From: Terribium retamae
GTDB taxonomy: Bacteria > Pseudomonadota > Alphaproteobacteria > Rhizobiales > Rhizobiaceae
Reading direction: 5' to 3'
Length of the DNA: 64,000 nt
Assembly (NCBI RefSeq): GCF_022347545.1
Contig: NZ_JAKREW010000003.1
Coordinates: 62,001 to 126,000 of the forward strand
Positions 24,493 to 38,243 of this stretch are shown one piece after another. The notes below the pieces were generated by a model. It did no database searches and had not been told where the DNA came from. It was given only the letters and a program-made list of their open reading frames with translations. Each line of letters starts with the position of its first letter. The stretch's first letter is position 1. Made by a program: the position numbers and the translations under genes.

Positions 24493-25167
24493 CTAGCGCG
24501 GTTTGACGGCCAGCCAAATGGTGTGCTTGGCGCCGCGCTTGCCGTGGGCGCGCACTGTGACAGCCTCGGCAGCAAAGCCGCTCTGCTGCAGCCGGCGGGT
24601 GAAGCCGCGACCCGGTCCGGAAGACCAGACCGCCAGCACGCCCGCAGGCTTCAACGCATCGCGAGCGGCCTTGAGGCCGGCGAAGCTGTAGAGCGTGTCG
24701 TTGCTATCCTGGGTCAACCCTTCGGGCCCGTTGTCGACGTCGAGCAGGACGGCATCGAACTCTTGGCGGGCTGCATCGATCAAGCGGGCGACATCGCCTT
24801 GTTTGACGGTGACGCGCGGATCATCGAGACAACCGTTGAAGATTCCGGCCATCGGCCCGCGTGCCCAGTCGGTCACAGCCGGCACAAGTTCGGCAACGGT
24901 GACCTTTGCATCGTTGCCAAGTTCGGCGAGCGCCGCGCGCAGGGTGAAACCCATGCCGAGGCCGCCGATCAGCACATGAATGCGGTCACGCTTGCCGAGT
25001 TTCTCCAGCGAGAGGCGGGCGAGTGCTTCTTCCGAGCCGCTGAGACGGCTGTTCATCAGCTCGTTGGAACCGAGCATGATCGAGAATTCGCTGCCGCGCC
25101 GTTTCAGTCGCAGCTCCTGCTTGCCGTCAGGCGTCCTGGCAGTGTCGAGCTGCTCCCAGGGAATCAA
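24493..25167 (-). CDS. Spermidine synthase-like methyltransferase-fold protein
   Basis: A 224-residue Rossmann protein of the spermine/spermidine synthase superfamily. The cofactor-site segment is VLIGGLGMGFTLRAAL, with the acidic strand VTVAELVPAV and the DAVLLDVDNGPEG segment in place of the usual DxxxxDxxDP. These stand-alone relatives lack the N-terminal beta domain and their reaction is uncertain. The TTG start overlaps the transporter stop by 4 bp (TTGA), so translation is coupled to the queuosine-precursor transporter. Confidence 0.75.
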   Translation of the reverse strand: MIPWEQLDTARTPDGKQELRLKRRGSEFSIMLGSNELMNSRLSGSEEALARLSLEKLGKRDRIHVLIGGLGMGFTLRAALAELGNDAKVTVAELVPAVTDWARGPMAGIFNGCLDDPRVTVKQGDVARLIDAARQEFDAVLLDVDNGPEGLTQDSNDTLYSFAGLKAARDALKPAGVLAVWSSGPGRGFTRRLQQSGFAAEAVTVRAHGKRGAKHTIWLAVKPR

Positions 25168-25847
25168 GGCTGAACCGTCGCCGGCTGGCTCCAGCGCGCA
25201 GCGATCAACCGGTAAGGGATCAGTGCGACGACGGCGATGAGCAGCTTCACCGACAGGTCGCCCAGCGCCCAGGACAGCCAGCGCATGGTTTCCATCGGAA
25301 ACACACCGAGCAAGGGAGCATTCTCCAATGCGAAAGCATCGTCAGGACCGATGAAGGCGAAGGCCGCGGAAAAAGCGATCGAGAAGAAGATCAGCGTGTC
25401 GAACACCGAGCCGACCAGTGTGCCGAAGATCGGTGCACGCCACCAGGTTTGGCGGCGCAGCCAGTTGAACACGGTGACATCCAGGAGCTGGGCGGTGAGG
25501 AAAGCCGCACCGGAGGCGCAGGCGATGCGCACCAGGCGAGCGGCAGCCGTGTCGAATTCGATCAGACCGGCGCGGAACAGCAGCGGCGGCGCGACGATGG
25601 AGCAGATGACGGCTGCCATGAAGCCGACGAAGACGATTCGGCGCGCCACAGCGGGTCCGTAGCGGCGGTTGGCAAGATCGGTGACAAGGAAGGCGAAGGG
25701 ATAGGTGAACGCGCCCCAGGTCAGGATATCGGCCAGCGACAGTGCGCCGACCTGTCCCTGCATGGGGAACTGAACAAGGATATTCGAAGCCACGACGACA
25801 AGCGCCATGGCGACCACGAAGGGCAAATACTGCGAAAAGAAACGCAT
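25164..25847 (-). CDS. Queuosine precursor transporter (VUT/YhhQ family)
   Basis: This 227-residue inner-membrane protein has about six helices. It begins MRFFSQYLPFVVAMALVVVASNI and contains the YhhQ-type segments FLVTDLANRRYGPAVARRIVF and GTLVGSVFDTLIFFSIAF. The family imports preQ0/preQ1 for tRNA queuosine. The ATG at 25847 has AGGA seven bases upstream and sits inside a preQ1-I-like pseudoknot, which supports the substrate assignment. A spermidine-synthase-like gene follows with overlapping codons. Confidence 0.9.
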   Translation of the reverse strand: MRFFSQYLPFVVAMALVVVASNILVQFPMQGQVGALSLADILTWGAFTYPFAFLVTDLANRRYGPAVARRIVFVGFMAAVICSIVAPPLLFRAGLIEFDTAAARLVRIACASGAAFLTAQLLDVTVFNWLRRQTWWRAPIFGTLVGSVFDTLIFFSIAFSAAFAFIGPDDAFALENAPLLGVFPMETMRWLSWALGDLSVKLLIAVVALIPYRLIAARWSQPATVQP

Positions 25848-25873
25848 TTTTTTATCCTGGGTAATGGAACCAG
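25845..25873 (-). ncRNA. preQ1-I-like riboswitch overlapping the transporter start codon
   Basis: The leader on the minus strand reads CUGG-UUCCAUUA-CCCAG-GAUAAAAAAAUG. P1 is CUGG/CCAG. The first C of CCCAG sits where the preQ1-pairing cytosine lies in the B. subtilis queC aptamer. The U after CUGG and the last A before AUG match the other two ligand contacts. The AUAAAAAA strand is identical to that aptamer. P2 would be CAU of the loop with the AUG start codon. The ribosome site AGGA lies partly in P1, so binding should block translation. The internal loop is three bases shorter than in queC. Confidence 0.72.
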
Positions 25874-25981
25874 TGGAGCACCTGGCCGGGACGGGCGGCG
25901 CATCCTTCATTCGAGCATCGGATGGTTCAAGCCAGGCTAGCCGATCCGACGCTCAGGCGGTCGTCCCCCGCCTGAAAGCAA

Positions 25982-26278
25982 TCAGGCAGCGGCCTGTCCG
26001 GCGTTCTTCTTGGCGATCTGCTTCTTCAGCAGACGAGCGCGCTGCGACAGCTCCTTCTCGTCGGCCTTGGCCAGGAAGGCGTCGAGGCCGCCGCGATGCT
26101 CGACCGAACGCAGCGCGTTGGCCGAAATACGCAGGCGCACGTTCTGGTTCAGCGCTTCCGAGATCAGCGTGACATTGACCAGGTTCGGCAGGAAGCGACG
26201 CCGGGTCTTGTTGTTGGCGTGGCTCACATTGTTGCCGGTCTGGACGGCTTTGCCGGTGAGTTCGCAAGCGCGGGACAT
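25982..26278 (-). CDS. rpmB: 50S ribosomal protein L28 (bL28)
   Basis: A 98-residue bL28 beginning [29 protein letters not shown], the family signature. The start at 26278 is fixed by that N-terminus; upstream in-frame codons do not match. It is a structural protein of the large subunit. The gene stands as its own unit between the transporter leader and a DUF1284 gene. Confidence 0.98.
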
Positions 26279-26411
26279 TTTTGCTACCTTCAGTTCATAC
26301 CGAGCCAAACCTTCGAGCCGCGCCGTATGGCGCGCAATGCTGTCGGCGGCCTCATGGAAAAAGTTGGCGTTCCATAGTGGCATTTCGCCGAGGCGTCAAG
26401 CGTTGTTCGGC

Positions 26412-26837
26412 TTAGGAACAGGTAAGCCGCACTTCCTTGAAGCCGGAACCGGCGATGGTGCTGCACAGATCGAACCACTCGCAGCCGTGACAGGCTTGAC
26501 GCGTTGATCCGGCGTGGAAGGCTACGCGCATGCGTTCGATCACCGACGCATCAAGGGAAAAGCGCGCGCCCTCGCGGATCGGGCGGTCCGCCAGGATTGC
26601 AACCGCATCGGCGGCAAGCCGATCGCGTTCGGTCACGGTATTCCAGAAACAATGAGGGTCGGTATCGCCAAGCAGTGGTTGGCAGATGTCGTCGGGACCG
26701 GCGACGAGGAGTATATCCTCGCCGCGGTTCAGCCGTTGCACCACCTCGTCATAGCCCTTCGTGAAGGCTTCGCTGTAACCCTTGCCAACATAGGTCAGCA
26801 TGCACAGCAGGTGATGGGCGCGGATACGGACGGTCAC
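26412..26837 (-). CDS. DUF1284 domain-containing cysteine-rich protein
   Basis: A 141-residue protein starting with GTG and reading VRIRAHHLLCMLTYVGKGYS, the DUF1284 hallmark. Seven cysteines (12, 52, 63, 116, 119, 125, 140) include Cys116-x2-Cys119-x5-Cys125 near the C-terminus, which could bind an iron-sulfur cluster or zinc. The function is unknown. It lies 21 bp downstream of bioY on the same strand and is probably cotranscribed with it. Confidence 0.82.
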   Translation of the reverse strand: MTVRIRAHHLLCMLTYVGKGYSEAFTKGYDEVVQRLNRGEDILLVAGPDDICQPLLGDTDPHCFWNTVTERDRLAADAVAILADRPIREGARFSLDASVIERMRVAFHAGSTRQACHGCEWFDLCSTIAGSGFKEVRLTCS

Positions 26838-38161: not shown

Positions 38162-38176
38162 TTACGGATCGCAAAC

Positions 38177-38230
38177 GGCCCTTTAGCGACTTATTTAACG
38201 TGGCTGCAAGCCGACCGGCCAAATCACCAC
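38177..38230 (-). ncRNA. SAM-II riboswitch (metA motif)
   Basis: The leader reads GUGGUGAUUUGGCCGG, continues with CGGCUUGCAGCCACGUUAAA, and ends with the conserved GCUAAAGGGCC. P1 is formed by GUGG and CCAC; the remainder makes the SAM-II pseudoknot. Class, gene and orientation agree with the alphaproteobacterial metA motif. The 3' edge is 63 nt before the metA start. Confidence 0.93.
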
Positions 38231-38243
38231 GGATCAAGCCCTG

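Follow-up and report, generated by a model that had tools for sequence, protein, structure and literature searches.

The leader of a queuosine-precursor transporter gene (VUT/YhhQ) in the window, by which we mean the whole 64,000-nucleotide stretch of DNA analysed, carries CUGGUUCCAUUACCCAGGAUAAAAAAAUG on the minus strand at 25873..25845, ending on the start codon of that gene. A preliminary description had placed a preQ1-I-like H-type pseudoknot here, with the start codon as the 3′ strand of P2; its coordinates and letters are exact, and the proposal is supported, in that it fits the sequence tests run, with the caveats given below. We read the element as a translational preQ1-I riboswitch akin to type III, with the start codon as its expression platform, and put the probability of this reading at roughly 85%. 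What we observe is that the element is conserved, goes with the transporter, matches the element upstream of E. coli yhhQ base by base, covaries in P2 and has the 3′ strand of P2 at the opening of a reading frame; the ligand, its binding and affinity, and the regulation with its direction are inferred by analogy with the E. coli element, there being no binding or expression data.

The element and its gene

With up to three mismatches allowed, the pattern CTGGTKSCATNACCCAGGNTAAAAAAATG matches the window once (25873..25845, minus strand) and none of 100 shuffles. The parts of the element and the adjoining genes are these:

25870..25873, minus strand: 5′ strand of P1, CUGG, read from the sequence; outer two bases free in the pattern scan, inner GG fixed
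25861..25869, minus strand: nine-base loop UUCCAUUAC, equal in length to that of E. coli type III, UUCCCUCAC
25869, minus strand: contact U of the loop
25866..25864, minus strand: anti-start-codon CAU of the loop
25862, minus strand: gatekeeper-like A of the loop
25861, minus strand: specificity C of the loop
25857..25860, minus strand: 3′ strand of P1, CCAG; its AG was free in the scan yet is kept
25855..25858, minus strand: Shine-Dalgarno-like AGGA, read from the sequence, first two bases within P1
25848..25856, minus strand: L3, a GAU linker and six A, resting on the A-run counts in the family's leaders
25845..25847, minus strand: 3′ strand of P2, the AUG start codon, taken to pair with CAU at 25866..25864; it opens the transporter frame, and the adjacent pair covaries
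25844, minus strand: base +4, C in the window; the fourth P2 pair in UG-type relatives, unpaired in UU-type leaders, the window's included
25164..25847, minus strand: queuosine-precursor transporter gene (VUT/YhhQ, 227 aa; Pfam PF02592, NCBIfam TIGR00697)
25982..26272, minus strand: rpmB, 50S ribosomal protein L28, upstream of the transporter gene (NCBIfam TIGR00009, 77.8 bits, cut-off 48.3)

P1 as CUGG/CCAG, a CAU complementary to AUG, the A-run and an AGGA partly within P1 are all present as first described, and the stated length of 29 nt is correct for the window's element, against 30 in UG-type relatives, where base +4 is also paired. The last G of the P1 5′ strand is expected to form the floor of the ligand pocket, and the L3 strand to run along the minor groove of P1.

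The 227-aa protein scores 97.2 bits against Pfam PF02592 (Vut_1; cut-off 27.2) and 105.7 bits against NCBIfam TIGR00697 (queuosine precursor transporter; cut-off 50.95). A longer open reading frame, from 25910, was rejected, since relatives, compared by eye, keep the motif AUG but none of the codons before it. No sigma-70-like promoter was found in 25780..26420, a result that says little for Terribium retamae. In three relatives (L207, L208 and L211) a G+C-rich stretch and a T-run, noted by eye, end at or just before P1; this is perhaps the terminator of the upstream gene, which would leave the 5′ end of the transporter mRNA uncertain.

Likeness to the E. coli type III element

The closest known counterpart is the type III element of E. 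coli yhhQ (PDB 8fza; PMC10622847), and not the queC aptamer to which the preliminary description likened the leader. The E. coli loop, U6 U7 C8 C9 C10 U11 C12 A13 C14, lies between G5 and C15; its P2 consists of U11-A28, C10-G29 and C9-G30; U6, C14 and A27 read preQ1, while C8 and A13 help to roof the pocket; and the 36-mer binds preQ1, the crystal structure coming from its 30-mer derivative (PMC10622847). The E. coli K-12 yhhQ leader carries the linker GGUUAAUC, as given for the 36-mer in that paper. The window's element has in common with it the downstream gene family, a nine-base loop (UUCCCUCAC in E. coli, UUCCAUUAC here), the U after P1, the AC before the P1 3′ strand, the G-C floor pair, the A-rich L3, and three Watson-Crick P2 pairs in a register identical to that of the crystal structure. 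The window's loop, between G and C, has UU after P1 and AC before the 3′ strand; it differs from the E. coli loop at position 10 (A for C) and at position 12 (U for C; C, U or A in Rhizobiaceae). In P2 a single pair is swapped, C10-G29 becoming A-U, and by that swap the ribosome site AAGG, the Shine-Dalgarno sequence that forms the P2 3′ strand in E. coli, becomes AAUG, the start codon. The Rhizobiaceae element as a whole departs from E. coli type III in its P1 (CUGG/CCAG), in the linker that joins P1 to the A-run (3 nt long in 113 of 115 motif leaders) and in the UGS loops of 54 of the 115.

Among the 30 loci of a phylum sample nearest to E. coli YhhQ, presumably gamma-proteobacteria, 26 have GGGUUCCCU...AAGG and none has CAU...AUG, so that in P2 these 26 E. 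coli-type loci have C-G where 115 Rhizobiaceae loci have A-U. With type II preQ1-I (Tte, B. subtilis; RF00522) the element shares the H-type pseudoknot, the contact bases U, C and A, the A-rich L3 and the AC before the P1 3′ strand (PMC11625349). The Tte loop, positions 6-15, is longer by one base (PMC10622847); Tte hides only two bases of the ribosome site, and the B. subtilis type II element drives a terminator (PMC11625349).

Conservation and covariation in the Rhizobiaceae

Transporter matches were obtained in 188 of 199 Rhizobiaceae genomes and in 168 of the 297 genomes of an order-wide sample, 13 of these 168 being Rhizobiaceae. The leaders compared were 124 from Rhizobiaceae, one per genome (119 of the 188, and 5 more from the window's genus), and 70 from the 155 transporter-bearing genomes of other families in the order. 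Defined as CTGG, 3 bases, CAT, 2-3 bases, C or CC, CCAG, 1-9 bases, 4-9 A and ATG, the motif is present in 115 of the 124 Rhizobiaceae leaders and in none of the 70 from other families, which have neither GGGUUCCCU...AAGG nor CAU...AUG. The nine Rhizobiaceae loci without it are L057, L065, L190, L203, L214, L217, L219, L228 and L229. The sequence flanking the motif varies between relatives (by eye). The A-run, for which selection demanded only 4-9, is 6 A long in 111 of the 115 motif leaders, 7 in 3 and 5 in 1. A DNA pattern scan over 84,980 species genomes, with the outer P1 bases, two loop bases and the four bases after CCC left free, matched at least 118 stretches, and the 80 matches with a title listed all bear Rhizobiales or unclassified names. 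The transporter follows 114 of the 116 parsed matches among those listed (tblastn); the other two (L346, L377) lie at locus edges and read like a transporter N-terminus, as does one of two unparsed matches (L316), the second (L326) stopping at a contig edge. In the 116 parsed matches listed, the outer bases of the P1 5′ strand are CU 113 times, UU twice (one U-G pair) and CC once (one mismatch in P1), and the AG of the 3′ strand is kept in all 116, including 4 in which the next base is not G.

The Rfam match by which the preliminary description could have been corroborated is absent: there was none at E≤10 in the leader (25780..25960), RF00522 included, and the 39-bit threshold of RF00522 (PreQ1) was not reached, the best score genome-wide being 16.9 bits, away from the leader. 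Rfam, however, is equally silent at E≤10 on the E. coli K-12 yhhQ leader. Hence its silence on the window's leader is uninformative, and we rejected it as evidence against a riboswitch. A covariance model of our own (R1), built from 37 leaders with the window's among them, has a single match in the window's genome, the leader itself, at 53.3 bits. Across 385 alpha-proteobacterial genomes R1 gave a match at E≤0.1 in 25, the window's and 24 others; this class scan used strict filters, and no other Rhizobiaceae genome is among those listed with a match. The weak matches in the 24 others (≤25.8 bits) were rejected, since none of their 25 loci had the transporter (tblastn). Nested folding energy was likewise set aside: it is no better than that of shuffles (z 0.29), and the E. 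coli element is also indistinct from its shuffles (z 0.52).

Covariation had been named as a check on both helices; P2 shows it, and in P1, where almost nothing varies, none is seen. The 115 leaders fall into three loop types, UUC (61), UGG (40) and UGC (14). UGG leaders always have C directly after AUG, UGC leaders always G, and UUC leaders A, C or U. In an alignment of 138 distinct rows (A2), each required to carry CAU, AUG and the inner P1 pairs, which therefore could not vary, base 7 (just before CAU) pairs with base +4 in 56 of 56 UG-type rows (G-C 42, C-G 14), and G stands at +4 in none of the 82 UUC (UU-type) rows. Since the second codons of UGG leaders specify L, R, Q or P, it is the base and not the residue that is kept. 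That P2 runs through the start codon is thus backed both by the covarying +4 pair and by the compensating pair difference from E. coli-type elements. In half of the UGC rows in A2, it should be said, translation may start elsewhere than at the motif AUG. The gatekeeper-like A is found in 61 of 61 UUC leaders and 40 of 54 UG-type leaders (80 of 82 and 34 of 56 rows in A2, the two UUC exceptions being the Bartonella loci L296 and L345). In the UG-type the second loop U is replaced, and often this A as well, from which we infer two pocket roofs, an E. coli-like triple in UUC leaders and a fourth Watson-Crick pair in the UG-type. Some Bartonella keep the motif before the transporter (L289, L296, L345), and in L296 and L345 the outer P1 pair is U-G and the gatekeeper-like A is absent.

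The controls on this covariation are mixed. In A2 the outer P1 pair is CG in 136 rows and UG in 2, the next is UA in 137 with one mismatch, and the inner pairs are fixed by selection, so that across the 138 rows P1 has only 2 one-sided changes and a single break; CAU and AUG are invariant, but the rows were chosen for them. Two-sided changes occupy 14 cells, a count as high in 1 of 500 shuffles, and the covariation score is reached by none of the 500; the number of pairs with a two-sided change (1) and of additional pair types (2) is no more than in the 500 shuffles. The true register pairs 92.5% of cells against 23-46% in slid structures. Even so, a slide of +2 gives 21 cells changed on both sides, more than the true 14, with 30.4% of cells paired, and a slide of -3 gives a covariation score of 0.038, against 0.019 in the true register, with 25.0% paired. 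Moreover, base 7 shares 0.42 bits with base +4 but 0.38 with column 1, outside the structure; with column 1 nearly as informative, kinship inflates the signal. On the transporter tree (92 rows, the first ten residues omitted, with the AUG at +13 taken as the start of L233, L235, L237 and L207), UGC and G at +4 each undergo 9 changes; only 3 independent UGC/+4G pairs have good branch support, and all 3 go the expected way (p 0.25).

Ligand, start codon and Shine-Dalgarno

The alternative that survives best keeps the fold and the start-codon pairing and replaces the ligand, which would not be preQ1, or not only preQ1, but preQ0 or queuine, above all in the UG-type; we hold it to be unlikely. It draws on the queuosine pathway, whose proteins we searched in 32 Rhizobiaceae genomes. 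PreQ0 is imported by YhhQ and reduced by QueF. The window's genome has QueF (109.2 bits) and QueA (415 bits), and its best QueC-family match (G000:C100:9905-10462) is divergent, at only 83.1 bits against 183-234 in 12 of the 32 genomes; hence it may depend on imported preQ0. UG-type loops, for their part, alter a base adjoining the pocket. QueA, moreover, is missing in four genomes (G006, G091, G168 and G182), of which the first three have the transporter and either no motif or a decayed one. Against a change of ligand, the window keeps all three of the ligand-reading bases (U, C and A) of the E. coli element, which binds preQ0 133-fold more weakly than preQ1 (PMC10622847). A clean link of motif loss to loss of preQ1 synthesis was sought and not found among the genomes searched: six other genomes without an intact motif have QueA, three of them (G124, G005 and G093) QueF and QueC as well, and five motif bearers (G039, G053, G013, G012 and G135) lack a QueF over the cut-off, so that the link is a loose one. 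Two related observations may be recorded here. In G155, of the same genus as the window's genome, the QueC-family match reaches only 23.2 bits. And two loci of a single genus, L217 (G111) and L229 (G006), in genomes of 1.5 and 1.1 Mb with no QueF match and no strong QueC match, have apparently decayed copies of the motif before the transporter, which look like a riboswitch in the process of being lost.

That the motif is merely a ribosome-binding site under conservation, or is bound by a protein or a small RNA, with no small-molecule ligand and a hairpin that only sets the level of translation, we regard as very improbable: AGGA, the A-run and AUG do make a good start region and P1 hardly varies, but CCAG is kept in all 4 parsed scan matches listed without the following G, a ribosome site needs neither the base 7/+4 pairing nor a kept loop, and the E. 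coli element, almost letter for letter the same, has been proven to be a preQ1 aptamer (PMC10622847).

Under the preferred reading, a preQ1-I riboswitch acting on translation, plentiful preQ1 would sit between P1 (CUGG/CCAG) and P2; its Watson-Crick face would be read by C 25861, and its minor edge by U 25869 together with the final A of L3. The ligand would lock P2 as CAU:AUG. With the start codon base-paired and half of AGGA tied up in P1, the 30S subunit could not initiate, and the transporter would be off and import shut when preQ1 suffices. Without ligand, the 3-bp P2 and 4-bp P1 would come apart, leaving AGGA and AUG accessible and normally spaced. In the UG-type P2 would gain a fourth pair with base +4, and in Aureimonas-like relatives the strand AUGGA would be the Shine-Dalgarno sequence for a start 13-17 nt downstream.

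The reading frames bear on this last step. The motif AUG is in frame with the transporter in 110 of 115 leaders, and in 109 of 109 with G after CCAG. Five of the six leaders without that G are out of frame and have an in-frame AUG at +13; in the sixth (L058) the motif AUG is in frame, with a GUG at +15. Among the 116 parsed scan matches the G is missing in 4, Aureimonas L280, L310 and L330 plus L377, where the transporter frame points to AUG +13, GUG +16, GUG +14 and AUG +17, respectively (the last by eye). In this Aureimonas-like minority AUGGA is probably the Shine-Dalgarno sequence for that later start, 13-17 nt away. On the transporter tree the four shifted rows require 3 changes, and in one genus (g40) L213 retains the in-frame start and L207 has lost it.

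In the literature, type III preQ1-I is characterised as confined almost wholly to gamma-proteobacteria and as masking the Shine-Dalgarno sequence (PMC10622847; PMC11625349), and a regulon survey that includes Rhizobiales places preQ1 riboswitches mostly in Firmicutes (PMC3766115). A term search of Corbino 2005 (PMC1273637) returned no mention of yhhQ, COG1738, queuosine, preQ or rpmB. In the open-licence literature we found no paper on the element in rhizobia or on a preQ1 riboswitch that pairs the start codon, though an earlier mention is not excluded. On balance we lean towards regarding the element as a fourth subtype of preQ1-I that nearly all Rhizobiaceae carry. Its pseudoknot would take the initiation codon as 3′ strand, a UG-type branch would have rebuilt the pocket roof through the base after AUG, and across relatives the platform would alternate between Shine-Dalgarno sequence and start codon on an almost unchanged aptamer. 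If so, the platform would be AAGG in E. coli, AAUG in rhizobia and AUGGA, as a Shine-Dalgarno sequence, in Aureimonas-like relatives, a clear case of a platform switching its target from ribosome site to start codon through one compensating pair. The first base of the start codon would cap the ligand-bound pocket, making sensing and start-codon hiding one event, and the base next to the start codon would be held by RNA structure. A large group of riboswitches would be added in rhizobia, agrobacteria, brucellae and relatives, unmatched by Rfam in the window, and at 29-30 nt the element would offer a natural system for studying start-codon hiding separately from ribosome-site hiding.

At its own thresholds, Rfam reports only one SAM-II riboswitch and one tRNA in the whole window. 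The former (SAM_alpha, RF00521) is a second compact pseudoknot riboswitch there:

38163..38240, minus strand: SAM-II riboswitch, 80.1 bits

SAM-II elements of alpha-proteobacteria resemble the transporter-leader element in being compact pseudoknots thought to block the ribosome site, and differ from it in fold, ligand and genes, and in that it is the Shine-Dalgarno sequence that is described as hidden (PMC9373788).
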